64,000 bases of DNA from Basidiobolus meristosporus CBS 931.73. Its lineage: Eukaryota; Basidiobolomycota; Basidiobolomycetes; Basidiobolales; Basidiobolaceae. The stretch's first letter is position 1. Every line of letters begins with the position of its first letter. Shown here one piece after another: positions 3,626 through 37,804 of this stretch. The DNA is taken from NCBI GenBank assembly GCA_002104905.1, contig MCFE01000220.1, positions 1 to 64,000 of the forward strand. The letters run 5' to 3'. The notes under the pieces are model-generated. The model saw only the letters and a list, made by a program, of their open reading frames with translations. It did not search any database and was not told the DNA's origin. A program made the position numbers and the translations under genes.

Positions 3626-3644
3626 TGCAGAGAGTGACAGCTTG

Positions 3645-8926: not shown

Positions 8927-10435
8927 ATGGCTACTTCTACCTGGGCTTCCTTCACTTCCGGCGAATCTGGCGCTTATGTCAAGATCACCACCACCGAGCT
9001 TCTCAACAAGTTCATTGATGAGATCTCATCCAATGATGCTTTTGCCAAGGCCTTGAAAGGTCTTGATGTCAGCCCCTTGTTTATGCATCAAATCCAATCC
9101 TCTGAAGATGAGGAGGAGGATTTACAAATCCATGAATGCAATGCCGAGGGCAGTAATGCTTGTCTCTTCAATGACTCCCAGCTAACCACCGTCATTGAGA
9201 AATGCTCGAACCTCGAGGTTTTGTGCATTGGTTATGGCCCTCAAATCATCGTTGCCGGTGACTTGATTAACATCTCAGGCCCTGAAGCTGGCATTGATAC
9301 TTCCAACGGACCAGCCTGCCTGTCCGAGGATGTGTTGAAGAGAGTTTCTGAGCTCTCCAAGTTGGAGATCTTGAACTTGTATGGCTGCGATAATCTTAGC
9401 CAAGATATTGTTGCCCAAATTGGCCGCGGTTGCCCTAACCTCAAGCAACTCTGCATTGATGGTGAAGGTGACGATGAGGACGATGATGGTTTTGAAGACA
9501 TCTCCGATGATGAGGAGGCCGTTGAAGGCGAAGAAGCTGAAGATAAGGTAGCTGAGGAGGAAGTTGTAGAAGAAGAGGAAGAGAGACCTTGGACTGTTGA
9601 AGACTGGAAAGCCTTCCAAAACCTCGAGGTCCTGTCTGCTGACAGCGTTGAGCTTGCCGTCGTTGCTGATCTCCCCAAGCTTACCCATGTTCAGATCTAT
9701 CCATTCGCTGAGCCAGATGTCTTGAAGAAGTTCATTGAAAGTCATGCTGATAGCCTCCGTTACATCAATGTTGCCGAGGAATATGATTACGAAGATGCTG
9801 ATGAAGTTTCAGTGTCCCATGCTCGTATGCCGTCAGAAATTTTCAAGTGCGCCAAGCTCGAGTCCTTCAACACTGATGTCTTTGACTACAAAGAAGCCAG
9901 AGCTGACGGATTCCTCACCAAGGTTATTGAATCATTCCCCAACTTGAAGCACTTGGAAATCGCTGCTGATGTCGAAGTTGCCAGTACCGCTCAAATCGTT
10001 GCTTCCAAACTAACCAACCTCGAGACCCTCGTCTGGGAATCGGAGTCGGTTGGCGATGAAGCAGTTGAAACCATTGTCAAGGCTCTTACCAACCTCCGTA
10101 ACTTGCAACTCTCCTTCAGCGAGAAGTTGAGTGAATCTACTGTTGGCCTTATTGCCGAGGGTTTGAAGAACCTCGAACAAATCAACGTCAACACCATCAC
10201 CCCTGCTGGTTTCGAAGTTTTCAAGAACAACTGCCCTCATTTGTCCGAGATTGGGGTCATCCAAGGTGAGAACCTTACCAAGGAACACCTTGCCAACATC
10301 AACGAGAAGCTTCCTAACTTGCGTAGCGTCTGTGTCGGAGGAGAGATCCCCGAAGAGATGCTTGATGCCCTCATGAATGTTGTTCCTGATGTTGAATATA
10401 ACATTGAAGGATTAGATGAGTCCGATGAGGAATAG
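8927..10435 (+). CDS. Acidic leucine-rich-repeat protein 1
   Basis: A 502-residue intronless protein from the ATG at 8927; an upstream extension lacks an ATG. The chain alternates irregular RNI-type leucine-rich repeats (motifs such as LEILNLYGCDNLS and CPNLKQLCIDG) with one long acidic insert at about residues 185-218, just before RPWTVEDWKAFQNLEVL. The repeats resemble those of F-box/LRR and RNI superfamily proteins, but no F-box is seen, so it is more likely a free adaptor or scaffold. No signal peptide. Two paralogues lie in this window: 11028-12530 next door in tandem, and 29958-31436. Identity to the tandem copy is patchy, nearly perfect in the first half and clearly lower afterwards. 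Function unknown. Confidence 0.85.
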   Translation: MATSTWASFTSGESGAYVKITTTELLNKFIDEISSNDAFAKALKGLDVSPLFMHQIQSSEDEEEDLQIHECNAEGSNACLFNDSQLTTVIEKCSNLEVLCIGYGPQIIVAGDLINISGPEAGIDTSNGPACLSEDVLKRVSELSKLEILNLYGCDNLSQDIVAQIGRGCPNLKQLCIDGEGDDEDDDGFEDISDDEEAVEGEEAEDKVAEEEVVEEEEERPWTVEDWKAFQNLEVLSADSVELAVVADLPKLTHVQIYPFAEPDVLKKFIESHADSLRYINVAEEYDYEDADEVSVSHARMPSEIFKCAKLESFNTDVFDYKEARADGFLTKVIESFPNLKHLEIAADVEVASTAQIVASKLTNLETLVWESESVGDEAVETIVKALTNLRNLQLSFSEKLSESTVGLIAEGLKNLEQINVNTITPAGFEVFKNNCPHLSEIGVIQGENLTKEHLANINEKLPNLRSVCVGGEIPEEMLDALMNVVPDVEYNIEGLDESDEE

Positions 10436-10969
10436 ATACTAGAGTAGACCGTTAATAACACATGACATATAGTTAACACTGTAAATTAGTGACATCTAAC
10501 CAGATGCGCAATGACCATTTATTAATTGGGCTATATTAGACCATAATCATAGCATGTACTCCTAATACCAAAATAAACCATCTAAAATGCAAGCTTCATA
10601 AAGATAACTGAGAAAGCAGTGTCGGGTGTTGTTGTTCGTGGATCCTCATCTCTAGCTAGTGTGTGGTAACGGAAATGCTATAATATACGCTAACTTTCAT
10701 GGAAAACACAGGAATTCAACAACATATAGAAGATACTGGAATGATTGTGGATCAACATACGACAAAGCTCAGAGCACAAAATTTTGGCTCCACAAGATAC
10801 TCCATTCGGCCAGCATTAATATTAATACATAGTTGTGAGAGGGCACCCTGTTTCAGGCCAATCAAGCATTCCATTATCTATTGGGTTTTGTGGATCAATC
10901 TCACTACGAGGACAGTATAAATGTACCACTGGCCTGCACGGTGTTGTATCATCATCCTTTAGTGGTTGA
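10436..10969. other. Intergenic between LRR genes
   Basis: AT-rich, with stop codons in all frames apart from a short open stretch at 10699-10920 without recognisable content. Contains the 3' region of LRR gene 1 and the promoter of LRR gene 2. Confidence 0.4.
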
Positions 10970-11017
10970 CGAATTGCCCTACGAATTGCCCTACGAATTG
11001 CCCTACGAATTGCCCTA
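10970..11017 (+). repeat. Four perfect 12-bp tandem repeats in the LRR2 leader
   Basis: CGAATTGCCCTA is repeated four times without a mismatch, ending 10 nt before the ATG at 11028. It therefore lies in the probable 5' untranslated region. LRR gene 1 has no such array. Confidence 0.9.
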
Positions 11018-11027
11018 ATTTCTAAAG

Positions 11028-12530
11028 ATGTCTACTTCTAACTGGTTCGCTTTTACTTCGAACGAGTCTAGTGCCTATCTCAAGATCACCACTACTGAGC
11101 TTCTCGACAAGTTCATTGATGAGATCTCATCCAATGATGCTTTTGCCAAGGCCTTGAAAGGTCTTGATGTCAGCCCCTTGTTCATCCGTACCGCTGTACC
11201 TGATAGAGAAGAGGCTGAGAGCCATGAATGTAATGCCGAGGGCGGTAACCCATGCCTTTTTACTGACTCCCAACTAACCACCGTCATTGAGAAATGCTCG
11301 AACCTCGAGGTTTTGTGCATTGGTTATGGCCCTCAAATCATCGAAGCCGGTGTCCTATTAAATGTGTCCGGTCCTGAAGCTGGATATCAAACCTCCAACG
11401 GACCAGCCTGCCTGTCCGAGGACGTGTTGAAGAGAGTTTCTGAGCTCTCCAAGTTGGAGATCTTGAACTTGTATGGCTGCGATAATCTCAGTCAAGATGC
11501 TGTTGTGCTCATTGGCCGCGGTTGCCCCAATCTCAAGCAGCTCTGCATTGATGGTGAAGATGATGAGGAGGATGATTTCGAAGATATCCTCAACGAGGAA
11601 GAAGATCAAGATGCTGCAGACAAGGAAGCTGAGGAGGAAATTGTAGAAGAAGAGGAAGAGAGACCTTGGACTGTTGAAGACTGGAAAGCCTTCCAAAACC
11701 TCGAGGTCCTGTCTGCTGACAGCGTCGAGCTTGCCGTCGTTGCTGATCTCCCCAAGCTTACCCATGTTCAGATCTATCCATTCGCTGAGCCAGATGTCTT
11801 GAAGAAGTTCATTGAAAGCCATGCTGATAAGCTCCGTTATACAAACGTTACTGAGGAGTATACCTACACTGATCCTGAAGATCCTGAAACCCCTATTCCC
11901 CACCACAAACTTCCAGTTGAGATTTTGAAATGCTCTAAATTGGAGTCCTTCAACATGAATGTCTATGATTATGCCGAATCTCACAGTGAAGGGTTCTTTA
12001 GAAAGGTTATCGAGTCTTTCCCCAACCTGAAACACTTGGAGCTTACCGATGATAGTGATGTTGCAACCACCGTAGCTTCAGTCACATCCAAATTAACCAA
12101 CTTGGAAACTCTTATCTGGGATTCTGAGGAAATCACCGATGAAACCGTCGGTGCGATCTCCAAAGCCCTCCCTAACCTCAAAAACTTCCTTCTTGCTTTT
12201 GGTGAGGAAGTCAGTGATAATGGCGTTGCTGCCATTGCCGAGAACCTCAAGAGCCTTGAGCAACTCTCCCTTCCCACCATCAGTCCTGCCAGTGTCAACG
12301 TCCTTAAAAACCAATGCCCCAAATTGGTTGAAGTCGGGATCATCCGCAGTGATAGTCTCACTAAGGAGCATGTTGAGGATCTTAAGGTCAGGCTTCCTAA
12401 CCTTCGAGGCATCTGCATTACTGGAGATATCAAGAAGGAGGTGATCGAGTGCTTGATGGCCCAAGTTCCTGAAGTTCAATATCACCTTGAGGGCTTGGAG
12501 GACAACGGAGAAGAAGCTGATGAGGAATAA
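11028..12530 (+). CDS. Acidic leucine-rich-repeat protein 2
   Basis: A 500-residue intronless tandem paralogue of the gene at 8927. It shares the N-terminal block (KITTTELLDKFIDEISSNDA), the RNI-type repeats and an acidic insert at about residues 180-208, and ends in another acidic tail (EEADEE). Nucleotide identity to copy 1 is almost complete in tracts such as 11658-11829 against 9587-9758, then falls sharply after about 11830. The second half has diverged in sequence while keeping the repeat spacing. The ATG at 11028 follows the 12-bp repeat array. No known domain other than LRRs; role unknown, perhaps a cytosolic or nuclear adaptor. Confidence 0.85.
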   Translation: MSTSNWFAFTSNESSAYLKITTTELLDKFIDEISSNDAFAKALKGLDVSPLFIRTAVPDREEAESHECNAEGGNPCLFTDSQLTTVIEKCSNLEVLCIGYGPQIIEAGVLLNVSGPEAGYQTSNGPACLSEDVLKRVSELSKLEILNLYGCDNLSQDAVVLIGRGCPNLKQLCIDGEDDEEDDFEDILNEEEDQDAADKEAEEEIVEEEEERPWTVEDWKAFQNLEVLSADSVELAVVADLPKLTHVQIYPFAEPDVLKKFIESHADKLRYTNVTEEYTYTDPEDPETPIPHHKLPVEILKCSKLESFNMNVYDYAESHSEGFFRKVIESFPNLKHLELTDDSDVATTVASVTSKLTNLETLIWDSEEITDETVGAISKALPNLKNFLLAFGEEVSDNGVAAIAENLKSLEQLSLPTISPASVNVLKNQCPKLVEVGIIRSDSLTKEHVEDLKVRLPNLRGICITGDIKKEVIECLMAQVPEVQYHLEGLEDNGEEADEE

Positions 12531-15272: not shown

Positions 15273-16460
15273 TTAGTAGCCACCACTGTTGTAGCCACCA
15301 TTGCGACCGCCAGAGTATCCACCGTCGTGACGCATCATATCCACCATTGATGACCGCCATCGATATCCACCGTTGTGTCCACCAGTATAGCCACCATGTC
15401 TGTTGTATCCAACCCGAATCTTGCCATCCAAGAGATTGCACACACTAGGATTGACGCTGACTCCAACAAGCTGCGCTGCTCCAACAATCACTCGACACTT
15501 CAGTCTCTCGAGACGGAGAAGGTCGATGTCGACACCCAAGCGAAGGCAAACGCCTAGATCGATTTTGGCGCCACACAAGGTGTGGATCTTGGCAATGATG
15601 GTCTCGCACGACTTGGGGTAGCGGGGCTTTCCGGTCGTTGGTGGGTAGGTAGGAGGCTGGCAGCTCTTGCATGGCTTCTCTGGAGTCGGTGGGTAGGATG
15701 GAGGGTTGGGAGGCTGACAGCTCTTGCATGGCTTCTCAGGGGTGGTGGGGGGATAGGCCGGAGGCTGTACAGGAGGCTTGCCAGGCTCACCAGGCTTACC
15801 AGGTTTGCAAGGCTTCTCTGGCTCAGTGGGGGTCTTGGGTGGCTTGGATGGCTTGTCGTGCATGACACTCACCTCGCCATCTCTCTTGATGTGCTTCTTC
15901 CCGTTGCCTCCAAGGGCCAGGCAAACCTTCGCGTCAGCCTTGATCCCCAGGATGTTGGCTGCGGCACAAGCCTCAACACAGGTCATCTTGGATGGGACGC
16001 CGCTGATGAGGGGGACCAGCTTGATGATGACATCGTTCAAGCAGACCTTCGCATCCACCTTGATGCCGAATGCGGCGAGTCGCGCGACCACGCCGTTACA
16101 CGCAGATTTAGCATGTTTGGCAGAGACTGAGGTGGTCTTGGACTTCTTGCCATGTCCAGCAGAGGCCAAGCACACCTTCGCGTCAGCCTTGATTCCCAGA
16201 ATGTTGGCTGCTGCCACGGCTTCTATGCATGTCATCTTGGATGGAACACCGCTGATGTGAGGGATCAGCTTGACAACGGTGTTGTCCAAGCAGACCTTAG
16301 CGTCAGCCTTGACCCCAAAGACAGCGAGCCTTGCCACTACTCCGTCGCAGACGGACTTCGAGTGTTGAGCGCTGATGGGAGTGGCACTCAGATTGATCGG
16401 CTCTTCGGCCATTACAAGCACAGCAGGTAACAAAGCTAAGGCGCTAGCGAAGAGCTTCAT
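15273..16460 (-). CDS. Secreted Cys-X18-Cys repeat protein, copy 1 (left gene of pair 1)
   Basis: 395 residues from the ATG at 16460. Residues 1-18 form a signal peptide (MKLFASALALLPAVLVMA). Two tandem modules follow, each with two Cys-X18-Cys units sharing the pattern of a variable helix, then (I/V)K-x-DAKVCL. Then come KKHIKR, a Kex2-like site, a Pro/Lys/Cys linker with a short GKPGEPGKP stretch and CKSC motifs, a third Cys module, and a Gly/Tyr/His tail. The tail is damaged: after HNGGY it reads through a Trp/Arg/Met-rich segment of about 13 residues before GGY repeats resume, the result of frame changes that sum to zero. The linker has GEPGKP where sisters have GKPGKP. No known family recognised; probably wall- or spore-surface associated. 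Confidence 0.85.
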   Translation of the reverse strand: MKLFASALALLPAVLVMAEEPINLSATPISAQHSKSVCDGVVARLAVFGVKADAKVCLDNTVVKLIPHISGVPSKMTCIEAVAAANILGIKADAKVCLASAGHGKKSKTTSVSAKHAKSACNGVVARLAAFGIKVDAKVCLNDVIIKLVPLISGVPSKMTCVEACAAANILGIKADAKVCLALGGNGKKHIKRDGEVSVMHDKPSKPPKTPTEPEKPCKPGKPGEPGKPPVQPPAYPPTTPEKPCKSCQPPNPPSYPPTPEKPCKSCQPPTYPPTTGKPRYPKSCETIIAKIHTLCGAKIDLGVCLRLGVDIDLLRLERLKCRVIVGAAQLVGVSVNPSVCNLLDGKIRVGYNRHGGYTGGHNGGYRWRSSMVDMMRHDGGYSGGRNGGYNSGGY

Positions 16461-17116
16461 GGTGTCGACCGATCGAGAAAGAGGGGGCAAAGGAGAGATG
16501 AGTTTGAATTGATGTGCCTGCCGGTGGAAGATCGTATATTTATAGCAAGCATTCTCTTCCGAAGATCAGTAAGTCAGTGACATACTGAGCCAACAACCAG
16601 TTCGGAGTGAGTCGAATATTTGGATACACTACCTGTAGTTGAGCACATAATAACTAAGCACTGCAATGTGAAACTTGACGATATTTCTAGTTTTCCCAAA
16701 ACGAAGAATTGCTGGTAGCATCTGATTATCATTCTTCCTCAGCTAGTGCCATATCAGACCCAAACATTCAGGTATGAGATGATGGTATGTTTGGATTCAC
16801 AAATTCGATCTATTGGTGAACAAAAGGGTTTCCTTAAATTGCATGCACCGCTGATCATTGAATTCATAGATATGCCAGAAGTATTGCTTGGTTCATCTTA
16901 CAAACTAAATGTAACCGGATTCTCAAGCATGCCAAAGTTCCAGTTATTTGCACTTGGGGTTGTGCGTCCAAATATACCTCCCCCGCCCTAGACAGATTAG
17001 AGACTCAACGAACTTTGGAGGAGACTGCTTGCTATAAATATACGATCTCCCGCCAGCAGTCAAACAATTCAAAGTCATCTCTCCTCTACTCCCCTCTTTC
17101 TCGATCGGTCGACACC
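16461..17116. promoter_or_regulatory. Bidirectional promoter of pair 1 (orientation I)
   Basis: 656 bp between head-to-head genes. A TATAAATA box lies on the minus strand at 16537-16544 and on the plus strand at 17033-17040, 77-84 nt from each ATG. The whole segment recurs reverse-complemented at 20738-21393. Its two ends recur in the same orientation at 25001-25643. Confidence 0.75.
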
Positions 17117-18358
17117 ATGAAGCTCTTCGCTAGCGCCTTAGCTTTGTTACCTGCTGTGCTTGTAATGGCCGAAGAGCCGATCAATCTGAGTGCCACTCCC
17201 ATCAGTGCTCAACACTCGAAGTCCGTCTGCGACGGAGTAGTGGCAAGGCTCGCTATCTTTGGAGTCAAGGCTGACGCTAAGGTCTGCTTGGACAACACCG
17301 TTGTCAAGCTGATCCCTCACATCAGCGGTGTTCCATCCAAGATGACATGCATAGAAGCCGTGGCAGCAGCCAACATTCTGGGAATCAAGGCTGACGCGAA
17401 GGTGTGCTTGGCCTCTGCTGGACATGGCAAGAAGTCCAAGACCACCTCAGTCTCTGCCAAACATGCTAAATCCGCGTGTAACGGCGTGGTCGCGCGACTC
17501 GCCGCATTCGGCATCAAGGTGGATGCGAAGGTCTGCTTGAACGATGTCATCATCAAGCTGGTCCCCCTCATCAGCGGTGTCCCATCCAAGATGACCTGTG
17601 TTGAGGCTTGTGCCGCAGCCAACATCCTGGGGATCAAGGCTGACGCGAAGGTCTGCCTGGCCCGTGGAGGCAATGGGAAGAAGCACATCAAGAGAGATGG
17701 CGAGGTGAGTGTCATGCACGACAAGCCATCCAAGCCACCCAAGACCCCCACTGAGCCAGAGAAGCCCTGCAAACCTGGTAAACCTGGTAAACCTGGCAAG
17801 CCCAGCAAACCTCCTGTCCAGCCTCCGGCCTATCCCCCCACCACCCCTGAGAAGCCATGCAAGAGCTGTCAGCCTCCCAACCCTCCATCCTACCCACCGA
17901 CTCCAGAGAAGCCATGCAAGAGCTGCCAGCCTCCTACCTACCCACCAACGACCGGAAAGCCCCGCTACCCCAAGTCGTGCGAGACCATCATTGCCAAGAT
18001 CCACACCTTGTGTGGCGCCAAAATCGATCTAGGCGTTTGCCTTCGCTTGGGTGTCGACATCGACCTTCTCCGTCTCGAGAGACTGAAGTGTCGAGTGATT
18101 GTTGGAGCAGCGCAGCTTGTTGGAGTCAGCGTCAATCCTAGTGTGTGCAATCTCTTGGATGGCAAGATTCGGGTTGGATACAACAGACATGGTGGCTATA
18201 CTGGTGGACACAACGGTGGATATGATGGCGGTCATAATGGTGGATACAATGGCGGTTACAACGGTGGGCATAATGGCAGTTACGATGGGGACCGTAACGG
18301 TGGTTATAATGGTGGTCATGATGGAGGATACAATGGCGGTCGTAACGGTGGCTACTAA
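17117..18358 (+). CDS. Secreted Cys-X18-Cys repeat protein, copy 2 (right gene of pair 1)
   Basis: 413 residues, the longest copy; start at the ATG at 17117, with the preceding open codons being leader. Signal peptide 1-18. Cys pairs are at 38/57, 78/97, 121/140 and 161/180 (extra Cys165), all spaced X18. The KR site is at 192-193. The Pro/Lys/Cys linker spans 201-285, including KPGKPGKPGKPSKP and two CKSC motifs. The C-terminal Cys module is 286-350 (Cys288/308, X19; Cys325/344, X18). The tail 351-413 repeats GG(Y/H) with Asn and Asp. No transmembrane segment and no GPI signal. By analogy with glycine/tyrosine-rich wall proteins the tail may be cross-linked, but that is inference. The coding region is nearly identical to the five sisters except in the tail. 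Confidence 0.88.
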   Translation: MKLFASALALLPAVLVMAEEPINLSATPISAQHSKSVCDGVVARLAIFGVKADAKVCLDNTVVKLIPHISGVPSKMTCIEAVAAANILGIKADAKVCLASAGHGKKSKTTSVSAKHAKSACNGVVARLAAFGIKVDAKVCLNDVIIKLVPLISGVPSKMTCVEACAAANILGIKADAKVCLARGGNGKKHIKRDGEVSVMHDKPSKPPKTPTEPEKPCKPGKPGKPGKPSKPPVQPPAYPPTTPEKPCKSCQPPNPPSYPPTPEKPCKSCQPPTYPPTTGKPRYPKSCETIIAKIHTLCGAKIDLGVCLRLGVDIDLLRLERLKCRVIVGAAQLVGVSVNPSVCNLLDGKIRVGYNRHGGYTGGHNGGYDGGHNGGYNGGYNGGHNGSYDGDRNGGYNGGHDGGYNGGRNGGY

Positions 18359-19050
18359 ATTCCGTTAAGCATTTGCAGCTTATTGTGATTCTGATATACC
18401 TCTTTGTATTTGTTGATAAGCTCATGCAAATTTATGTGAGGTTTTAAATGTTCATTTGGTAATTAACTCTAAATAAATCCACTTACATGATCAACTCGAT
18501 CCGCATATTGCTGGATGACTAGAGGTGGATTGGCGGCTCAAATAAGTAATGCATCTTCAAATTGCTTCATGGTCGGACTGGAAATTGTGTTGCAAATGCT
18601 GACTAAAGGAGTATTATGATCGGTCTAGCTAATGGTGGATTTTATATAGTATTGTCCCAAAGGTTCCCTCAATCTCCCTTCGCCATAATCAGTAACTTTG
18701 AGTCAGTATATGAGATGCAATACACTACCAATTGCGAATCTGAGTATCCATAGTGAGATGACATTTCGAGTAGAACACTATACAATAAAAAGCGCTTGGA
18801 ATCAATCTACGGTTCCTACTTAGACCATCTTGGGCTTGAAAAGTATTATAATCTATATATTACTTTTATATTTTCATATTGATTTGAGTATTTCCACTGT
18901 ATTGCCTATCGATGATTTGTCTGGAATTAACAATCAGTAAGAATCGTAGTAGAGACTGTATCGGTTGGTGTAATGGTAGCCTCAAGGCCAACTTTAACTG
19001 TGAGATCTGGGATTGTTATATTGGCAACTACTAACTATGGAAAGGTGTAG
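18359..19050 (+). repeat. 3' flank repeat of pair 1 with a decayed tail relic
   Basis: This downstream flank aligns in the same orientation with 22614-23250 after copy 4, though clearly diverged. Near 18950-19000 it holds a stretch homologous to the relic at 23173-23229, where a GGRN...Y-stop tail is still readable; here it is degraded. No intact gene. Confidence 0.55.
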
Positions 19051-19564
19051 GTCTTACTGCTTCACTTTTGGAATACTAAAATTCAATTCAGACCAAGCCT
19101 CTAGCTGAACGCACCTGTACATATGTTCTGTTTAGTTCATGGCTCCAACTATTGTCTAATTTAAGTGTATCTTGATAGTATGTATACAGGCCATTAGAAC
19201 ATAACAATATAATCGTGTGTACTTGAGAGATCAAGGCTCTGCCTTAATTCAAATACATCAAGATTGCTAAAATATTTCATTGTGCCTTTCACTTATTGAA
19301 TCCCCAGTTTTCTCCCTATAAACTTCATATGACTAAACAGTTGCCTTAAAAATGCTAATACAAGCAAGCCTCTAATTCGCGATATAATTAATTTCCCCAC
19401 AGCGTTCTTGTCTACACTATAATAACAGTAACATTTGCTGCTCAACCTCCAAGCCATATATGTATTAATATAGACATTCAATACTTTATTAATAAACAAA
19501 TGTTAACAGTTCGCATTAAAGAGTATATTACGCACTGACGAATGATCGCAGATATTATCAATAT
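19051..19564. other. Spacer between pairs 1 and 2
   Basis: AT-rich. 19293-19564 aligns with about 23580-23872, the region just downstream of secreted copy 5 (minus strand), showing that the 3' flanks of the minus-strand genes were also duplicated. No gene. Confidence 0.45.
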
Positions 19565-20737
19565 TTAATAGCCACCACTGTTGTATTCACCATTGCGACG
19601 GCCATTATATCCACCATTATGACCGCCATCATATCTACCGCTGTGTCCACCAGTATAGCCACCATGTCTGTTGTATCCAACCCGAATCTTGCCATCCAAG
19701 AGATTGCACACACTAGGATTGACACTGACTCCAACAAGCTGCGCTGCTCCAACAACCACTCGACACTTCAGTCTCTCGAGGCGGAGAAGGTCGATGTCGA
19801 CACCCAAGCGAAGGCAAACGCCTAGATCGATTTTGGCGCCACACAAGGTGTGGATCTTGGCAATGATGGTCTCGCACGACTTGGGGTAGCGGGGCTTTCC
19901 GGTCGTTGGTGGGTAGGTAGGAGGCTGGCAGCTCTTGCAAGGCTTCTCTGGGGCCGGTGGGTAGGATGGAGGGTTGGGAGGCTGACAGCTCTTGCATGGC
20001 TTCTCAGGGGTGGTGGGGGGATAGGCCGGAGGCTGGACAGGAGGCTTGCTGGGCTTGCCAGGCTTACCAGGTCTACCAGGTTTGCAAGGCTTCTCTGGCT
20101 CAGCGGGGGTCTTGGGTGGCTTGGATGGCTTGTCGTGCATGACACTCACCTCGCCATCTCTCTTGATGTGCTTCTTCCCATTGCCTCCAAGGGCCAGGCA
20201 GACCTTCGCGTCAGCCTTGATCCCCAGGATGTTGGCTGCGGCACAAGCCTCAACACAGGTCATCTTGGATGGGACACCGCTGATGAGGGGGATCAGCTTG
20301 ATGATGACATCGTTCAAGCAGACCTTCGCATCCACCTTGATGCCGAATGCGGCGAGTCGGGCGACCACACCGTTACACGCGGATTTAGCATGTTTGGCAG
20401 AGACTGAGGTGGTCTTGGACTTCTTGCCATGTCCAGCAGAGGCCAAGCACACCTTCGCGTCAGCCTTGATTCCCAGAATGTTGGCTGCTGCCACGGCTTC
20501 TATGCATGTCATCTTGGATGGAACACCGCTGATGTGAGGGATCAGCTTGACAACGGTGTTGTCCAAGCAGACCTTAGCGTCAGCCTTGACTCCAAAGATA
20601 GCGAGCCTTGCCACTACTCCGTCGCAGACGGACTTCGAGTGTTGAGCACTGATGGGAGTGGCACTCAGATTGATCGGCTCTTCGGCCATTACAAGCACAG
20701 CAGGTAACAAAGCTAAGGCGCTAGCGAAGAGCTTCAT
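19565..20737 (-). CDS. Secreted Cys-X18-Cys repeat protein, copy 3 (left gene of pair 2)
   Basis: 390 residues from the ATG at 20737, in the same layout as copy 2: signal peptide, two double Cys-X18-Cys modules, Kex2-like KR, Pro/Lys/Cys linker with GRPGKPGKPSKP and CKSC motifs, C-terminal Cys module, short Gly/Tyr/His/Arg tail ending GGY. Its leader and upstream region match those of copy 2 rather than copy 1, although it is the left gene of its pair. The reading frame is intact. Differences from copy 2 are a handful of substitutions in the modules, while the tail differs in length and order. Confidence 0.88.
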   Translation of the reverse strand: MKLFASALALLPAVLVMAEEPINLSATPISAQHSKSVCDGVVARLAIFGVKADAKVCLDNTVVKLIPHISGVPSKMTCIEAVAAANILGIKADAKVCLASAGHGKKSKTTSVSAKHAKSACNGVVARLAAFGIKVDAKVCLNDVIIKLIPLISGVPSKMTCVEACAAANILGIKADAKVCLALGGNGKKHIKRDGEVSVMHDKPSKPPKTPAEPEKPCKPGRPGKPGKPSKPPVQPPAYPPTTPEKPCKSCQPPNPPSYPPAPEKPCKSCQPPTYPPTTGKPRYPKSCETIIAKIHTLCGAKIDLGVCLRLGVDIDLLRLERLKCRVVVGAAQLVGVSVNPSVCNLLDGKIRVGYNRHGGYTGGHSGRYDGGHNGGYNGRRNGEYNSGGY

Positions 20738-21393
20738 GGTGTCGACCGATCGAGAAAGAGGGGAGTAGAGGAGAGATGACTTTGAATTGTTTGACTGCTG
20801 GCGGGAGATCGTATATTTATAGCAAGCAGTCTCCTCCAAAGTTCGTTGAGTCTCTAATCTATCTAGGGCGGAGGTGGTATATTTGGACGCACAACCCCAA
20901 GTGCAAATAACTGGAACTTTGGCATGCTTGAGAATCCGGTTACATTTAGTTTGTAAGATGAACCAAGCAATACTTCTGACATATCTATGAATTCAATGAT
21001 CAGCGGTGCATGCAATTTAAGGAAGCCCGTTTGTTCACCAATAGATCGAATTTGTGAATCCAAACATACCATCATCTCATACCTGAATGTTTGGGTCTGA
21101 TATGGCACTAACTGAGGAAGAATGATAATCAGATGCTACCAGCAATTCTTCGTTTTGGGAAAACTAGAAATATCGTCAAGTTTCACATTGCAGTGCTTAG
21201 TTATTATGTGCTCAACTACAGGTAGTGTATCCAAATATTCGACTCACTCCGAACTGGTTGTTGGCTCAGTATGTCACTGACTTACTGATCTTCGGAAGAG
21301 AATGCTTGCTATAAATATACGCTCTCCCACCAGTAGTCAAACAATTCATACTCATCTCTCCTCTACTCCCCTCTTTCTCGATCGGTCGACACC
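20738..21393. promoter_or_regulatory. Bidirectional promoter of pair 2 (inverted, orientation II)
   Basis: Reverse complement of 16461-17116 over essentially its whole length, with the same 656-bp size. TATAAATA boxes are at 20814-20821 (minus) and 21310-21317 (plus), 77 nt or slightly more from the ATGs. The coding and 3' regions outside are not inverted relative to pair 1. Confidence 0.75.
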
Positions 21394-22613
21394 ATGAAGC
21401 TCTTCGCTAGCGCCTTAGCTTTGTTACCTGCTGTGCTTGTAATGGCCGAAGAGCCGATCAATCTGAGTGCCACTCCCATCAGTGCTCACCACTCGAAGTC
21501 CGTCTGCGACGGAGTAGTGGCAAGGCTCGCTATCTTTGGGGTCAAGGCTGACGCTAAGGTCTGCTTGGACAACACCGTTGTCAAGCTGATCCCTCACATC
21601 AGCGGTGTTCCATCCAAGATGACATGCATAGAAGCCGTGGCAGCAGCCAACATTCTGGGAATCAAGGCTGACGCGAAGGTGTGCTTGGCCTCTGCTGGAC
21701 ATGGAAAGAAGCCCAAGACCACCTCAGTCTCTGCCAAACATGCTAAGTCTGCGTGTAACGGTGTGGTCGCGCGACTCGCCGCATTCGGCATCAAGGTGGA
21801 TGCGAAGGTCTGCTTGAACGATGTCATCATCAAGCTGGTCCCCCTCATCAGCGGCGTCCCATCCAAGATGACCTGTGTTGAGGCTTGTGCTGCAGCCAAC
21901 ATCCTGGGGATCAAGGCTGACGCGAAGGTCTGCCTGGCCCTTGGAGGCAATGGGAAGAAGCACATCAAGAGAGATGGCGAGGTGAGTGTCATGCACGACA
22001 AGCCATCCAAGCCACCCAAGACCCCCACTGAGCCAGAGAAGCCTTGTAAACCTGGCAAACCTGGTAAGCCTGCAAGCCCAGCAAGCCTCCTGTCCAGCCT
22101 CCGGCCTATCCCCCCACCACCCCTGAGAAGCCATGCAAGAGCTGTCAGCCTCCTACCTACCCTCCATCCTACCCACCGACCCCTGAGAAGCCATGCAAGA
22201 GCTGCCAGCCTCCTACCTACCCACCAACGACCGGAAAGCCCCGCTACCCCAAGTCGTGCGAGACCATCATTGCCAAGATCCACACCTTGTGTGGCGCCAA
22301 AATCGATCTAGGCGTTTGCCTTCGCTTGGGTGTCGACATCGACCTTCTCCGTCTCGAGAGACTGAAGTGTCGAGTGATTGTTGGAGCAGCGCAGCTTGTT
22401 GGAGTCAGTGTCAATCCTAGTGTGTGCAATCTCTTGGATGGCCAGATTCGGGTTGGATACAACAGACATGGTGGTTATAGTGGTGCACACAACGGTGGAT
22501 ATGTTGGCGGTCACAATGGTGGTTTCAACGGTGTACACAATGGCGGTTACGATGGTAACCGTAACAGTGGCCATTATGGTGGCTACAATAGCGGTCGCAA
22601 TGATGGCTACTAA
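21394..22613 (+). pseudogene. Secreted Cys-X18-Cys repeat protein, copy 4, frameshifted in linker
   Basis: Starts at the ATG at 21394 with the same signal peptide and four Cys-X18-Cys units. One G is missing near 22072, where sisters have CCTGGCAAG and this copy has CCTGCAAG. Translation then runs out of frame through a Ser/Arg/Pro-rich segment to a stop at 22311 (305 residues). The original frame resumes undamaged to 22613, including the last Cys module and a Gly/Tyr/His/Asn tail with its own repeat order. It is either a recent pseudogene making a truncated secreted product without the C-terminal Cys module and tail, or a base-calling error; the remainder shows no decay. Confidence 0.85.
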
Positions 22614-23250
22614 ATCCCGTTGAGCATTTTCTGTTTCTTGTGTGATTCTGATATGCCGTTTGGTATTTGTTTATAAGCTCATGTCTATGCGAGTGAGGTT
22701 CCAAATGTCAATGCAGTAACCTATTGAATAAAAGCCAATTACATGATCAACTTTAATACATTTTGCTGGATTATTGGAGGTGGATTGGTGGCTCAAGTTA
22801 GTACTGTATCTTCAAAATACCTTGTGATTAAACTGGATATTATGGAGCAAATACTGCCTAAAGGAGGACCATGACCGATGTGGTCAATGGGGGATATTAT
22901 ATTTATACAATCTCTCGTGGCGATAACAAGTACCTTCGAGTTGAGGTATTAAATGCAATGCACTACAAATTGGGAAGCTTGGTATGTGTAGTAGGATAAC
23001 GTTCTAGTTAGAGTAACGTACGATACATAATGTATGGAGCTACGCTCCGTCTCTAGACAGGACTATCTCGGCTGTATGTTACATATTTAGGTTCAATTTT
23101 TTTGAAGTAATTCATGCATGTTTCCTAACGATGTTTTGGCTCCAATTGTCGATTAGTGAGAATCATATTGGAGACCATGACGGTGGGCGGAATGCTAGCC
23201 GCAAAGATCACTATTTCGATGGCTACTAAAAGGAAATATGGGTTTTATTG
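22614..23250 (+). repeat. 3' flank repeat of pair 2 with a readable tail relic
   Basis: Homologous to 18359-19050. At 23173-23229 an in-frame stretch reads as a tail remnant containing GGRN and ending DGY followed by TAA, like the family's GGY-stop ends, but with no Cys modules attached. It suggests a lost neighbouring copy or an old extension of the tail. Confidence 0.5.
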
Positions 23251-23872
23251 GCTACTTTGAACGACAAAAATGATTTAGGCATTGTTGCTTCAGAATGTGT
23301 ACATGAATCAAGAGATATTGGGTGTCAGTGGCACTTGGCCTGAAGAGGTGTTGACCGGATAGGGAGAAGTCCCAATAAGAGGTACTTCTCGATTGCCGGC
23401 ATTCAATGATGATTGAGTGTCAAACCAAACTAACCAACAAAACAGCCATTCCAACCATCATTGTGGGATATAAATAAATCTTGACGTAAACAAATGAAAT
23501 CTCATAGTGTTTTTATCTAACGCCGAAAAATACATTAATGCCGTATTTTTCAGTGTACCAACTATATTCTCATCTTACTACTAATATACTTGAAATGCAT
23601 AAGCGTATGTCTCTAAAATGGTTGTCTACACTAATGTCGAAGTACTTACGCCATAGGCAGTGTAAGAAGTTCTACTAACTCGACCTTCTCTGCGAAGCTC
23701 TCTTCGCAATAACAACAGCATTTACCACACCATCACCAACTTGTACAGGTGAGCTTTATTCAAAATAGCTATTACATGTAGGCATTCAGCTCTTTGCTAA
23801 TAAGTATATACTAGCAAGACGCAATAAAAGATATGTTACCTACTGCCAAAAAAATACAAATATGAACTATAT
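23251..23872. other. Spacer between pairs 2 and 3
   Basis: AT-rich spacer with no gene. The last 290 bp align with 19293-19564, the matching 3' flank of copy 3. Confidence 0.4.
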
Positions 23873-25000
23873 TTAATAGCCACCACTGTTGTATTCACCA
23901 TTGCGACCACCATTATAGCCGCCGTTACGGTTACTGTCATACCCACTATTATGTCCACTACTGTGTCTATCGGTGTAACCGCTATGTCTGCTGTATCCAA
24001 CCCGAATCTTGCCATCCAGGAGATTGCACACACTGGGATTGACACTGACTCCAACAAGCTGCGCTGCTCCAACAATCACTCGACACTTCAGTCTCTCGAG
24101 ACGGAGAAGGTCGATGTCGACACCCAAGCGAAGGCAAACGCCTAGATCGATTTTGGCGCCACACAAGGTGTGGATCTTGGCAATGATGGTCTCGCACGAC
24201 TTGGGGTAGCGGGGCTTTCCGGTCGTTGGTGGGTAGGTAGGAGGCTGACAGCTCTTGCATGGCTTCTCAGGGGTGGTGGGGGGATAGGCCGGAGGCTGGA
24301 CAGGAGGCTTGCTTGGCTTGCCAGGCTTACCAGGTTTGCCAGGTTTGCAAGGCTTCTCTGGCTCAGTGGGGGTCTTGGGTGGCTTGGATGGCTTGTCGTG
24401 CATGACACTCACCTCGCCATCTCTCTTGATGTGCTTCTTCCCATTGCCTCCAAGGGCCAGGCAAACCTTCGCGTCAGCCTTGATCCCCAGGATGTTGGCT
24501 GCGGCACAAGCCTCAACACAGGTCATCTTGGATGGGACACCGCTGATGAGGGGGATCAGCTTGATGATGACATCGTTCAAGCAGACCTTCGCATCCACCT
24601 TGATGCCGAATGCGGCGAGTCGCGCGACCACACCGTTACACGCGGATTTAGCATGTTTGGCAGAGACTGAGGTGGTCTTGGACTTCTTTCCATGTCCAGC
24701 AGAGGCCAAGCATACCTTCGCGTCAGCCTTGATTCCAAGAATGTTGGCTGCTGCCACGGCTTCTATGCATGTCATCTTGGATGGGACACCGCTGATGTGA
24801 GGGATCAGCTTGACAACGGTATTGTCCAAGCAGACCTTAGCGTCAGCCTTGACTCCAAAGATAGCCAGCCTTGCCACTACTCCGTCGCAGACGGACTTCG
24901 AGTGTTGAGCACTGATGGGAGTGGCACTCAGATTGATCGGCTCTTCGGCCATTACAAGCACAGCAGGTAACAAAGCTAAGGCGCTAGCGAAGAGCTTCAT
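23873..25000 (-). CDS. Secreted Cys-X18-Cys repeat protein, copy 5 (left gene of pair 3)
   Basis: 375 residues from the ATG at 25000, the shortest intact copy. Signal peptide, two double Cys-X18-Cys modules, KR site, linker, C-terminal Cys module and tail are all present. The linker lacks one CKSC-containing unit (one instead of two), and the tail is rich in Ser, Arg and His (RHSGYTDRHSSGHNSGYDS), unlike the GGY/GGH pattern of copies 2-4. Its leader shares a variant (GATCAATC instead of GGTCGAC-type sequence) with copy 6, so the two converted each other. Frame intact. Confidence 0.88.
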   Translation of the reverse strand: MKLFASALALLPAVLVMAEEPINLSATPISAQHSKSVCDGVVARLAIFGVKADAKVCLDNTVVKLIPHISGVPSKMTCIEAVAAANILGIKADAKVCLASAGHGKKSKTTSVSAKHAKSACNGVVARLAAFGIKVDAKVCLNDVIIKLIPLISGVPSKMTCVEACAAANILGIKADAKVCLALGGNGKKHIKRDGEVSVMHDKPSKPPKTPTEPEKPCKPGKPGKPGKPSKPPVQPPAYPPTTPEKPCKSCQPPTYPPTTGKPRYPKSCETIIAKIHTLCGAKIDLGVCLRLGVDIDLLRLERLKCRVIVGAAQLVGVSVNPSVCNLLDGKIRVGYSRHSGYTDRHSSGHNSGYDSNRNGGYNGGRNGEYNSGGY

Positions 25001-25643
25001 GGTGACGATCAATCGAGAAAGAGGGGAGTAGAGGAGAGATGAGTTTGAATTGTTTGACTGCTGGCGGGAGATTGTGTATTTATAGCAAGCATTCTCCTCC
25101 GAAGATCAATATGCCAGTGACATATTGAGCCAACAACCGGTTCGGAGTGAGACGAATCCTACCGTCGAGAACGACTAACATATCTGTCAGCACTTCGTAC
25201 TACCATGTGAATTATGAGGAGGTTTGTAGCTTCCCTACGAATGGTTGTACCTCAAGGCATTTGATAATCATTCATATAGAGCTGGTGCGAAATCAGACCC
25301 AAACATACAAGCACAAAATGATATTTTGTTTGGGTTCACAAATTTGATTGATAAACAGAAAAGAGAAATGCCCTAAATTACATTTATTGCTGATCATTGA
25401 ATCCGCAGATATGCCTAAAGTAATGTTTGATTCATGCCACAAACCAAATACAACTCAAGCAGCTTCACCTTTGATTGCTGGTACTGGAGTTGTGTACCTA
25501 AATATACCCCCACTCCGGGCAGATTAGAGACTCAACGAACTTTGGAGGAGACTGCTTGCTATAAATATACGATCTCCCGCCAGCAGTCAAACAATTCAAA
25601 GTCATCTCTCCTCTACTCCCCTCTTTCTCGATTGATCGTCACC
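25001..25643. promoter_or_regulatory. Bidirectional promoter of pair 3 (orientation I, diverged)
   Basis: The ends match pair 1 in the same orientation, while the middle (about 25150-25480) has diverged strongly. TATAAATA boxes lie at 25077-25084 (minus) and 25560-25567 (plus), again 77-84 nt from the ATGs. Confidence 0.7.
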
Positions 25644-26792
25644 ATGAAGCTCTTCGCTAGCGCCTTAGCTTTGTTACCTGCTGTGCTTGTAATGGCCGAA
25701 GAGCCGATCAATCTGAGTGCCACTCCCATCAGTACTCAACACTCGAAGTCCGTCTGCGACGGAGTAGTGGCAAGGCTCGCTATCTTTGGAGTCAAGGCTG
25801 ACGCTAAGGTCTGCTTGGACAACACCGTTGTGAAGCTGATCCCTCACATCAGCGGTGTCCCATCCAAGATGACATGCATAGAAGCCGTGGCAGCAGCCAA
25901 CATTCTGGGAATCAAGGCTGACGCGAAGGTGTGCTTGGCCTCTGCTGGACATGGAAAGAAGCCCAAGACCACCACAGTCTCTGCCAAACATGCTAAATCC
26001 GCGTGTAACGGCGTGGTCGCGCGACTCGCCGCATTCGGCATCAAGGTGGATGCGAAGGTCTGCTTGAACGATGTCATCATCAAGCTGATCCCCCTCATCA
26101 GCGGCGTCCCATCCAAGATGACCTGTGTTGAGGCTTGTGCTGCAGCCAACATCCTGGGGATCAAGGCTGACGCGAAGGTCTGCCTGGCCCTTGGAGGCAA
26201 TGGGAAGAAGCACATCAAGAGAGATGGCGAGGTGAGTGTCATGCACGATAAGCCATCCAAGCCACCCAAGACCCCCACTGAGCCAGAGAAGCCTTGCAAA
26301 CCTGGCAAACCTGGTAAGCCTGGCAAGCCCAGCAAGCCTCCTGTACAGCCTCCGGCCTATCCCCCCACCACCCCTGAGAAGCCATGCAAGAGCTGTCAGC
26401 CTCCTACCTACCCACCAACGACCGGAAAGCCCCGCTACCCCAAGTCGTGCGAGACCATCATTGCCAAGATCCACACCTTGTGTGGCGCCAAAATCGATCT
26501 AGGCGTTTGCCTTCGCTTGGGTGTCGACATCGACCTTCTCCGCCTCGAGAGACTGAAGTGTCGAGTGATTGTTGGAGCAGCGCAGCTTGTTGGAGTCAGC
26601 GTCAATCCCAGCGTGTGCAATCTCTTGGATGGCAAGATTCGGGTTGGATACAACAGACATGGTGGCTATACTGGTGGACACACTGGTAGATATAATCGAG
26701 GTCATAATGGTGATTACAATGCTGGGCATGATGGTGGTTACGACGGAGATCGCAATAGTGGCTATAATGGCGGTCATGATGGTGGCTACTAA
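25644..26792 (+). CDS. Secreted Cys-X18-Cys repeat protein, copy 6 (right gene of pair 3)
   Basis: 382 residues from the ATG at 25644; the long open leader before it is untranslated by comparison with sisters. Same modules as copy 2, one CKSC linker unit as in copy 5, and a tail of YTGGHTGRYNRGHNGDYNAGH type, still Gly/Tyr/His-rich. Frame intact. It closes the six-gene array. After its stop the sequence becomes single-copy. Confidence 0.88.
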   Translation: MKLFASALALLPAVLVMAEEPINLSATPISTQHSKSVCDGVVARLAIFGVKADAKVCLDNTVVKLIPHISGVPSKMTCIEAVAAANILGIKADAKVCLASAGHGKKPKTTTVSAKHAKSACNGVVARLAAFGIKVDAKVCLNDVIIKLIPLISGVPSKMTCVEACAAANILGIKADAKVCLALGGNGKKHIKRDGEVSVMHDKPSKPPKTPTEPEKPCKPGKPGKPGKPSKPPVQPPAYPPTTPEKPCKSCQPPTYPPTTGKPRYPKSCETIIAKIHTLCGAKIDLGVCLRLGVDIDLLRLERLKCRVIVGAAQLVGVSVNPSVCNLLDGKIRVGYNRHGGYTGGHTGRYNRGHNGDYNAGHDGGYDGDRNSGYNGGHDGGY

Positions 26793-28442: not shown

Positions 28443-29864
28443 ATGGCTGCTGTTCGACGCTCAGAGCGTTTATCAAACAAAAAGAGTGCTTGTAAAGTAG
28501 TAGAAGCAAGAGGTCCAGAAGAAAAACCTTCCGGTTTACAAGCAAGGAAACGCAAAGCAAAAACGACAGTAACCAAGCAAGATAAAAGCTCACCAGATAT
28601 ATCGTTAACCTCCGAAACCAAGGTTACGATCCCCAACCCTGCCAATAATTCGGAATCCGTGTTGGAACAGTCGACAACAGCCTGCAAACATAGAAAAGAA
28701 GGTTAGCGCTAGTAGGTTTGTTATAGACCCGAGAGAATCCTAATTTCATAGGAAAGATCATATAGACATGTCAATCAAAACAACGGCCTCCATTACACCA
28801 TTACTCCTACGCAACCAGCAATCCAAAAAATTCGTCGGGGCGCACGTTAGCGCGGCTAAAGGGGTATACAATGCAATTTATAATGCGCACCTGATAGGGT
28901 AATTGCCACACTGATATCTCTTGACTTGTATATTGAACTAAACTGTCTGATCCGGACAGTGGTCAAGCGTTTGCGCTGTTCTTGAAGTCCCAGCGGAAAT
29001 GGACCTCCCCGGACTATACGTCAAAACAGGTGGAAACGTTTCATGCGGCTCTTCAGAACTTCGCATACTCCCCCAGCCAAATATTACCTCATGGAAGCTA
29101 TTTGGTGAATCTTGGAAATCCAGATTCCGAAAAGCGAAAGCTTTCGTATGAAGCATTCCTGGACGATTTGAAAAGGTGTGAGCAGCTCGGTCTGAAGCTG
29201 TATAATTTCCAGTAAGCAAGCGTCCCACGATATATGTGCATCAAGTAGATTTGTAGTAAGTAGATTTGCTCATCCTCGTTAGCCCTGGATCGACAGTGGG
29301 GAAATGCACAAATCAAGAATCCATTCAATACATCGCTGATGGGATCAATCAAGCGCACCAGGAAACCAAATCGGTTGTATGCGTACTTGAGAACATGGTA
29401 AGCATGCGCGGTTAGGCGGTGGGTCCTGAGCTAACACCTTGGAAACGTAGGCTGGCAGCGGGAACGTCATTGGATCCAAGTTTGAGGAGTTGAGATCGAT
29501 CATTGACTTGGTAAGAGATCAGAGTAGAGTTGGCGTTTGTCTGGACACCTGTCATGCGTTTGCTGCCGGGTACGATCTGAGAACAGAAGTGGAGTACAAC
29601 AAGGTCATCGATGAGTTCGATAAAATCGTGGGTCTGAACTATCTACGTGGCCTTCACCTCAACGATTCCAAGACCGAGCTGGGCTCCAAAAAGGACCGCC
29701 ACGAGCTCATCGGCAAAGGACACATTGGCCTAGATGCCTTCAGATTCATCATGAACGATGCTAGACTCGAGGGTATCCCAATGGTTCTAGAGACTCCGTT
29801 CAGTGGGGATGCCGGATACGCCCAAGAAATAGAACTTCTGTATAGCTTAGTCGAGGACAAGTGA
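28443..29864 (+). CDS. APN1: AP endonuclease, endonuclease IV family
   Basis: Five exons (28443-28701, 28766-28898, 28960-29211, 29283-29397, 29451-29864) add to 1173 nt, a 390-residue protein. After a basic Lys/Arg/Ser-rich N-terminus (probable nuclear signal, about 105 residues) comes the endonuclease IV barrel: [70 protein letters not shown] and VLETP. These supply the His/Asp/Glu ligands of the three-zinc site. It cleaves DNA 5' of abasic sites in base-excision repair. Introns of 53-71 nt all fit GT-AG. It is convergent with LRR gene 3, 93 nt away. Confidence 0.92.
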
Positions 29865-29957
29865 CCTCTTGGTTGGACATGTTGTGCCAGTCTTAATATG
29901 TTGATTTTATTATCCTCAAACATCAATAATATACAAGTCGAATGAAACAACATTAGT

Positions 29958-31436
29958 CTAGTGCTCACAGCCACAATCGCCGTGCTCGTGCTCGTGTTCG
30001 TGATCGTGTGGAACATGATAGTGAACTTCAGGCACTTGATCCATGATCACCTTCAAGATACCTTCTCCGATCTCACCGGTGATGCAGAGATTTTGCAATG
30101 AGGGGAAGCTTTCCAAAAGGTCGATGACATCCTCGGCAGCCACATCGTTGCAATCGAGAACACCGAGTTCATACAGACGAGTGCAATGGGCCTTCAATGC
30201 CTTGAGACCGGTGGGGGTCAACTCTTGAAGAGTCAATTGCTCCAACAATGGGAGATTCTCGGCGATTGATACAACACCGGCATCTGTGACTTGGACACCG
30301 AAAGAAAGATGAAGGTTGCGTAGCTTTTTACATGAGGTGGCAATGGTCTTGACCATGTCATCGGTGATCTCGTCGGATTCCCAGACAAGGGATTCCAAGT
30401 TGGCGAAGTTAGAAGCGAGTGATTGAGCAACCCCTTCTGTTGGCAGATCGAATGCCACCTCGAGGTGCTTGAGGTTGGGGAGCGACTCGGCCAACTTGGT
30501 AAGGAAGCCAGATGAGTGGACCTCGTTATGATCGAACAAGTTCATGTTGAAAGACTCCAACTTGGGGCACAGAAGAATGTCCAAGGGCAATCTCTGGCTA
30601 GGCCCAGACTCGTCGACAGGCTCACATTCTTCAAATACGTTGAGGTAGCGGAGGGTGTCCTTGCGTGACTGGATGAATGTTTTCAAGTCCTCAGAGTCAC
30701 CATAGGGGTTGACTTGTACTCTGGTAAGCTTGGGGAGATCACAGATCAAAGAGAAATCAACGCCATCGGCACAAAGGGTTTCGAGGTTCTGGAATGGTTC
30801 CCAATCTTCCTTAGTCCAGTCCCTGCTTTCAGTCTCCTCACTAGCCTCCTCCTTGTCGTTTTCCTGACCCTCTTCGTCCTCTTCTTCCTCGTCTTCTTCC
30901 TCGTCTTCATCTTCACCATCAATGCAAAGCTCCTTGAGGTTGGGACAACCACGTCCAATAGCTGCTACAGTATCATGGCTAAGGTTGTCACAGCCATACA
31001 GGTTCAACACCTTTAGGCTGCTAAGCTCCGAGATGTGCTCTAATACAGAGTCGCTCAAGAAAGCGGGACCACGGAGTGGCGAGTGGCTGGTCTCTGGGGT
31101 AGACATGTTCAACAAAGCACCCGAGCCGATCAATTCCGGGCCGTAACCAATGCAAAGATACTCCAATCCCTTGCACTTCTCCAGGATCACAGCCAAGTCC
31201 TCATCGGTAAAGACCACGGGCTCTTCCTCCTCCTCAGGCTCTTCATCGTCTTCGCTGGCTAGCTTTTCCTCTAGAGGCTTCTTAAGGAACAAGGGGCTCA
31301 AGTCGAGGCCTCTGACGCTGGAAGAAAAGCTTCCAACCTGAATTTCCTCGATGAACTTGGCCAAAAGTTCCTCAGTATAGATACGAAGGTAGCTACCAGA
31401 GTCGGTATTAGTATAATCAGACCAAGTAATAGACAT
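29958..31436 (-). CDS. Acidic leucine-rich-repeat protein 3 with His-rich tail
   Basis: 492 residues from the ATG at 31436; the longer frame has no earlier ATG. Single exon. It is a distant paralogue of the two LRR genes at 8.9 and 11.0 kb, with the same opening (SYLRIYTEELLAKFIEEI), RNI-type leucine-rich repeats and an acidic insert of about 30 Glu/Asp at about residues 178-210, followed by DWTKEDWEPFQNLETL. Unlike its paralogues it ends with a His/Glu/Cys string (HDHEHEHEHGDCGCEH), a plausible metal-binding tail. No conversion tracts with the other two are visible. Function unknown; presumably a cytosolic or nuclear scaffold. Confidence 0.85.
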   Translation of the reverse strand: MSITWSDYTNTDSGSYLRIYTEELLAKFIEEIQVGSFSSSVRGLDLSPLFLKKPLEEKLASEDDEEPEEEEEPVVFTDEDLAVILEKCKGLEYLCIGYGPELIGSGALLNMSTPETSHSPLRGPAFLSDSVLEHISELSSLKVLNLYGCDNLSHDTVAAIGRGCPNLKELCIDGEDEDEEEDEEEEDEEGQENDKEEASEETESRDWTKEDWEPFQNLETLCADGVDFSLICDLPKLTRVQVNPYGDSEDLKTFIQSRKDTLRYLNVFEECEPVDESGPSQRLPLDILLCPKLESFNMNLFDHNEVHSSGFLTKLAESLPNLKHLEVAFDLPTEGVAQSLASNFANLESLVWESDEITDDMVKTIATSCKKLRNLHLSFGVQVTDAGVVSIAENLPLLEQLTLQELTPTGLKALKAHCTRLYELGVLDCNDVAAEDVIDLLESFPSLQNLCITGEIGEGILKVIMDQVPEVHYHVPHDHEHEHEHGDCGCEH

Positions 31437-31592
31437 GACGATGAACTGAATCCTGAGAGGAGACAACTCGATTTATAAGAGAAAAAATTCTCCAAGCCAA
31501 GCAAATTTCGATTTGCTCAAATGTTTGTTTATCAAATGCATAATAACAGATCGTTTATTTGTTTTCTGAAATGATCAAAAAAGAATCATGCA

Positions 31593-37519: not shown

Positions 37520-37804
37520 CCAACATTCGGAGAAGCATGCCTGTGATACCCAAAATATAATATAGATTACCCCGCTTCTGTTGCAAACCTTGAGCAGTCA
37601 TGATTAAGTAAATCACTATTTAATATAAAGATACGCATTAGATGTCAACCACCCAAATAACCTGATGAGAAATCTGCCAATCAAATAGCTCTACGTGATC
37701 TTACACGTAATGAGTGGCTAGCCCCGAATCAAATTTGTAGCTTATTATATTTGAAGCTTGAAAGTTCGAGTTTGAACACTACTTTCATTACCGAAGCCGC
37801 GATA

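Follow-up and report, generated by a model that had tools for sequence, protein, structure and literature searches.

In the genome of Basidiobolus meristosporus CBS 931.73, the promoter region shared by head-to-head genes for putatively secreted cysteine (Cys)-repeat proteins appears to be inverted occasionally between gene arms that are homogenised by gene conversion, a reading to which we give a probability of about 0.6. It is based on an array of six such genes in a 64,000-nucleotide stretch of contig MCFE01000220.1 (the window), and on a further pair of the same family found on two contigs, C455 and C1148. As assembled, the spacer between the genes is seen in opposite orientations at two independent loci: in the second pair of the window relative to the first and third, and in C455 relative to C1148.

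The array lies at positions 15273-26792 of the window. The sequence-only reading of this DNA had described six near-identical genes in three head-to-head pairs with the strand order -,+,-,+,-,+. The order and the copies were found as described, but only five of the six frames are open: g1 (15273-16460, minus strand, 395 amino acids), g2 (17117-18358, plus, 413), g3 (19565-20737, minus, 390), g5 (23873-25000, minus, 375) and g6 (25644-26792, plus, 382), the last two with a shorter linker. The sixth copy, g4 (21394-22613, plus), is broken in the linker, which leaves two shorter frames, 21394-22311 and 22287-22613. The array is built from three repeats of a two-gene unit, each approximately 4.27 kb long (start-to-start spacings of, for example, 4277 and 4263). 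Codons 1-190 are 97.5-99.3% identical among all six copies, and the tails 59.1-87.1%. An arm at 16515-18266 (plus), made of most of the first intergenic region and most of g2, is repeated in inverted orientation at 19588-21339 (minus), which covers most of g3 and most of the second intergenic region; as this inverted repeat is 1752 nt long at 98% identity, the repetition cannot be put down to chance.

One bidirectional promoter per pair had also been proposed, and the anatomy of the three head-to-head intergenic regions (IG12, 16461-17116, 656 bp; IG34, 20738-21393, 656 bp; IG56, 25001-25643, 643 bp) suggests that they would act in both directions, with TATAAA at -84 on both sides in all three. 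The three promoters are, however, not alike, and the middle one reads as inverted relative to both of the others. The 100 bp adjoining each ATG are 87-100% alike across all six copies, and the core promoters therefore belong to the inverted arms. Orientation was scored on the asymmetric cores, which are the intergenic regions trimmed by 110 bp at each end (approximately 16571-17006 in IG12), with 20 shuffles per comparison. The cores of IG12 and IG34 are 98.4% identical when one is inverted and 56.9% in direct order (shuffle mean 54.1, maximum 57.1), and over the whole intergenic region the values are 97.6% and 62%. IG12 and IG56 match in direct order (70.2% vs 54.1% inverted), and IG34 and IG56 match in inverted order (69.5% vs 54.1% direct), the shuffles over the window comparisons having means of 53.3-54.1 and maxima of 55.0-57.1.

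Outside the intergenic regions, the pairs are in direct order. The tail of g3 is closer to that of g1 (79.3%) than to that of g2 (73.7%), and the tail of g4 is closer to that of g2 (87.1%) than to that of g1 (71.3%). The right 3' flank of the second pair matches that of the first pair at 69%, with 58-73 direct vs 36-48 inverted matches per 100 (18300-18799), and the end and 3' flank of g5 match those of g3 at 72%. With an inverted core but direct tails and flanks, g3 has a g2-type upstream region and g4 a g1-type one; the region upstream of g4 is 97.0% identical to that of g1. Sites differing in both pairs place the switch between +462 and approximately +1144.

The second locus is a pair of family genes on C455, encoding 509 amino acids on the minus strand and 582 on the plus strand, whose flanking sequence recurs on C1148. 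Three sampled stretches of C1148 are collinear with C455: 14500-16500 (95.5%), 19000-26500 (98.4-99.2% outside the intergenic region) and 28801-30300 (99%). C1148 could be either the other haplotype or a segmental copy; its positions 1-1500 and 10001-11500 match dispersed repeats and are uninformative on allelism. The flanks adjoining the genes are in direct order (left 99.2%, right 99.9% identity), and the 1104-bp intergenic region between them is 99.3% identical when inverted vs 60.2% direct. For the core, these values are 99.7% and 56.8%, the latter just exceeding the highest of 20 shuffles (mean 53.8, maximum 56.2). TATAAA is located at -106 on both sides in both intergenic regions.

The sites that distinguish the gene copies at this locus fall into zones. 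From -500 to -200, 179 of 180 sites have changed sides, although these spacer sites are not independent; beyond +900, 90 of 101 sites keep their side and 11 are converted (8 R/R and 3 L/L). Between the two zones, there are patches in both states. Codons 1-100 do not differ among the four copies, while synonymous divergence (dS) in codons 101-270 is 0.053-0.115. This is the pattern that recombination in the arms, together with patches of conversion, would be predicted to leave.

The window copies also point to homogenisation. Over codons 1-190, dS is 0.014-0.091, and the ratio of nonsynonymous divergence (dN) to dS is 0.05-0.2 in 11 of the 15 comparisons and 0-0.32 in all of them. The intergenic region of the third pair differs from IG12 by 24% in matching orientation, and the tail-to-tail spacers differ from each other by 38.5%. 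At sequence level, the arms stay alike under purifying selection while the tails, the 3' flanks and the spacer of the third pair diverge. The broken g4 has Cys modules that are as alike to those of the other copies as those copies are among themselves; the break could be recent, a sequence error, or lie in a copy that is maintained by conversion.

We propose that gene conversion between the arms of a pair, which are near-identical in opposite orientation and enclose an asymmetric spacer of 0.42-0.67 kb as trimmed, would keep the coding arms and core promoters alike. Recombination between the arms, by crossover or, at the window locus, also by a conversion tract that extends from the inverted neighbour across the spacer, could then turn the promoter round. 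Both genes would stay promoted after such a flip because the TATA elements are inside the arms, and the upstream regulatory half and the 5' coding half would be joined to a different linker and tail. Rather than being a programmed switch, the flip most likely arises as a side effect of homogenisation.

Several observations weigh against this interpretation. The orientations are read from assembly sequence, and mis-assembly is possible at either locus. A second contig carrying the window array was looked for in the genome and not found. The sites of the window pairs beyond +1118 are mixed, which is because the tails are repeats. The promoter of another head-to-head pair of the family, on contig C602, has neither a palindromic core with arms nor a second full copy and does not provide a clean case. 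For the proteins, the AlphaFold2 model of a relative, P0008, is poor, with a mean predicted local distance difference test (pLDDT) score of 46.6. Finally, in matching orientation the difference between IG12 and IG34 is just 2.4%, against about 30% between the right 3' flanks of their pairs. An old duplicate whose promoter had simply been inverted in place would not show this last discrepancy, and some copying, likely from the inverted neighbour, must have taken part in the window flip.

The copying could account for the whole of the window flip without an inversion, if g2, IG12 and part of g1 had been copied from an inverted template onto g3, IG34 and part of g4, or the reverse. As g2 and g3 are inverted neighbours, and the 97.6% identity between IG12 and IG34 is far above the approximately 70% of the right 3' flanks, copying is needed at this locus, and we hold an inverted-template conversion tract to be a strong competitor, at a little under even odds. 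It is unneeded at C455 and C1148, where the flanks and the spacer are equally alike.

Inversion between arms kept alike by conversion could also be mimicked by the assembly if, at both loci, the short spacer had been placed the wrong way round between its near-identical arms or chimeric reads had been incorporated. The arms are 1.2-1.75 kb long at 92.7-98% identity, 300 identical coding bases adjoin the promoter at the second locus, C1148 is only 30 kb long, and sequence error could be behind the g4 frame break as well. PacBio reads usually span lengths of about 2.4 kb, which is the length of arm plus spacer at the second locus. The strain is stated to have been sequenced with PacBio (PMC7466969). 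Furthermore, two loci are affected, and the L/L and R/R conversion patches at the second locus would not be predicted by a simple mis-join. An artefact is considered improbable.

The flip was testable only in the window set and in C455/C1148, among the head-to-head family pairs read (three in the window, C455/C1148 and C602), and was seen in both. On C602, the minus gene of the pair has a mosaic sequence, with parts of each of the two neighbouring plus-strand genes. The 5' side of the first plus-strand gene on contig C295 is of the same type as the minus gene of C602 (96.5% over 230 nt) and the third gene there (96.7% over 419 nt), and matches the second C602 gene over only 56 nt at 80%, which indicates that 5' halves have been exchanged in this set too. 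C295 was not counted as a flip, because the gene runs off the contig and its promoter is absent. The window contains a second head-to-head pair, at 52047-52677 and 53232-53862, which is 98.6% identical over 631 nt in inverted orientation and encodes a protein unrelated to the Cys-repeat family, without a Pfam match at E up to 0.01. It has a 72% relative on contig C674, and there is no second copy of its spacer for comparison. Duplicates in such an inverted head-to-head arrangement may be frequent in the genome.

A regulated or selected promoter switch, in which inversion sets which tail variant receives which regulatory half, would be a eukaryotic analogue of bacterial promoter inversion. The position of the TATA elements inside the arms, which makes both orientations usable, would suit such a switch, as would the asymmetric spacers, the variable tails and the occurrence at two loci of the same family. 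However, no fixed breakpoint was seen, and the switch points lie within long arms, as predicted by homologous recombination; recombinase sites were not searched for. Bacterial invertible promoters, such as those of fimbriae and of Bacteroides, use site-specific recombinases at short repeats. They resemble the Basidiobolus case in having promoter DNA in two orientations beside surface-protein genes, and differ from it in that the Basidiobolus arms are long and homologous, with a promoter kept on either side. We consider a programmed switch quite unlikely, which also agrees with the authors of the Saccharomyces case described next, who suggest that orientation changes there are a by-product of the continual homogenisation of inverted repeats of paralogous genes (PMC9731477). 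It is similarly a long shot, though marginally less so, that this fungus has a eukaryotic system of surface variation in which homology-driven promoter shuffling gives the variable tails new regulatory regions and 5' halves.

The nearest precedent is that flip/flop region on Saccharomyces chromosome XIV (YNL018C/YNL034W and YNL019C/YNL033W), which the mechanism proposed here resembles at promoter scale. In both systems, near-identical paralogues form an inverted repeat, are homogenised, and have the segment between them in both orientations; for Basidiobolus the two orientations are seen in the sequence of one assembly. In Saccharomyces, the inverting segment spans 24 kb and 15 genes, the repeats comprise entire genes, promoters included, and no change of orientation was recorded in approximately 53,800 mitoses and 950 meioses (PMC9731477). 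In Basidiobolus, by contrast, only the shared promoter spacer and the 5' gene halves are turned, at two loci of one family. Recombination between inverted repeats also changes orientation in the flip/flop mating-type switching of Ogataea, Komagataella, Ascoidea and Pachysolen; in Ascoidea rubescens, where the orientation varies between strains, the 5' end of a gene falls within the 2-kb repeats (PMC6692504). That system is a cell-type switch with invertible regions of 8 to 138 kb, while the Basidiobolus spacer is below 1 kb and without known regulation. Among the open-licence papers listed, none reports promoter inversion between eukaryotic paralogues, as far as titles and the opening lines of abstracts show.

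Each array copy begins MKLFASALALLPAVLVMAEE, and a putative signal peptide was recognised by eye in these copies and in the complete relatives. The proposed common layout was read in all five open copies: Cys at 38, 57, 78, 97, 121, 140, 161 and 180, forming four Cys-X18-Cys units, an extra Cys at 165, then Lys-Arg (KR) at 192-193 and a Cys/Pro/Lys linker, followed by the third Cys module and, at the end, a Gly/Tyr/His tail of variable length. What needs to be revised is the third module, which aligns as a divergent copy of the same Cys unit and is matched by a module of another family protein, L017, at E 1.6e-4 to 2.1e-4. The N-terminal part is an internal duplication of two halves (249-nt spacing, dN 0.13, dS 1.36). 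A single Cys module followed by KR, linker and third module is found in the B. ranarum proteins P0004 and P0005 and in a relative on contig C968, and the four-unit form therefore looks derived; of the other relatives, P0006 has no KR and P0007 no third module. In the P0008 model there is a hint of helix-loop-short-helix units, and the Cys-X18-Cys units may be cationic, helical and disulfide-bonded.

Cleavage by Kex2 could occur at KR 192-193, which is the sole KR or RR in four of the five open copies, g3 having RR at 380 in the tail as well. Kex2-processed repeat proteins (KEPs) contain several repeats, each bounded by Kex2 sites. The array proteins have instead a single KR between two protein parts and do not qualify as KEPs, which they resemble in being putatively secreted and in having repeats and a KR site; 43 KEPs have been reported from this strain (PMC7329392).

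The N-terminal part of the window proteins (17.8-17.9 kDa, isoelectric point 9.5-9.6) is hydrophobic on average, with a grand average of hydropathicity (GRAVY) of +0.39 to +0.44, and the C-terminal part is hydrophilic. A role as surface or matrix protein would fit this composition, and the array protein is most likely an extracellular component of the wall, the spore coat or an adhesive matrix. The capilliconidia of a Basidiobolus relative bear adhesive material (PMC13370150), which makes an adhesive role possible and is not evidence for these proteins. It is very doubtful that they are hydrophobin-like surfactants, despite the Cys-rich, hydrophobic N-terminal part and the name Hydrophobin given in UniRef to the B. 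ranarum relative P0006, since hydrophobins have eight Cys with two Cys doublets, and the open array copies have 17 or 19 Cys with no CC pair in any. The UniRef name was rejected because P0006 has no Pfam family at E up to 10, and the hydrophobin Pfam families were matched neither by six array pieces (E up to 1) nor by ten relatives including P0006 (E up to 10).

The sequence-only reading recognised no described family in these proteins, and this stands: nothing was above the cut-off in Pfam for the array proteins or their relatives, in NCBIfam for four proteins, or among PDB sequences (a sequence comparison, not a fold search), and word-limited protein searches brought no characterised family. 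A Pfam match to Ribo_biogen_C was rejected, as it scored 21-22 bits vs a cut-off of 29.9 and was confined to one 34-residue stretch. None of the open-licence papers listed, judged as above, describes the family. The protein searches gave 7, 5 and 3 hits, all of them the window itself, B. ranarum or B. meristosporus; a profile search showed P0008, from CBS 931.73, to be 100% identical to the L017 protein. The family has so far been seen only in Basidiobolus, a restriction that should be taken as provisional because these searches, which rely on word matches, overlooked relatives present in the genome itself.

Within the genome, the Cys unit is not confined to the array. Matches at E up to 0.001 were found on 14 contigs, two of which (C946 and C200) have weak matches only (E 2.4e-4 to 5.4e-4). 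With the family defined by the pattern C-x-x-[IVL]-[VI]-A-x(5)-G-x(7)-C, present at least twice per protein, 228 units were counted in 35 frames from 13 of the 14 sources scanned; this count comes from our own motif filter, includes near-duplicate contigs and cut frames, and drops all frames of the L020 locus. The 20-residue consensus is C-[PDN]-[DG]-I-V-A-[RK]-L-N-x-L-G-I-K-V-D-A-N-V-C, and in many family proteins long Gly-rich or Pro-rich spacers separate the units. The frame L009 2365-5460 on contig C1005 has 1032 amino acids and 22 counted units with Gly/Asn-rich spacers between them, and near-duplicate pieces of it are on C875. The frames of L020, on C147, are very long Gly/Lys/Asp/Tyr repeats that begin with Cys units. 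The genome-wide family, like the promoter inversion and the g4 frame break, was absent from the sequence-only reading.

Between the pairs of the array are two tail-to-tail spacers (18359-19564 and 22614-23872), which are 61.5% identical. A transposon origin of the first was unsupported, as its part 18400-19540 matched only itself and the next spacer (69% over 344 bases) in a search skipping very common words. Elsewhere in the window, 37800-42414 contains direct duplicates at 91-97%, including a cyclophilin-type isomerase frame (39210-39755) with a secretion-like start. Frames 8864-10432 and 11019-12527 are in tandem at 75%, and 29961-31472 is related, with a partial inverted match at 70%; weak leucine-rich repeat matches were obtained for 8864-10432 and 29961-31472, the two that were scanned. 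A Copia-type gag reading frame is present at 2387-3658.

If both orientations are real, there have been promoter inversions at no fewer than two loci of one secreted-protein family, with one locus present in both orientations in a single assembly. If true, promoter flipping by ordinary homologous recombination would be directly testable in a eukaryote, and the concerted evolution of duplicate genes would be linked to regulatory rearrangement. The Cys-repeat family, in one frame of which as many as 22 units were counted, may be a main surface material in a genus that inhabits amphibian guts and has also been recovered from a human eye (PMC7466969).

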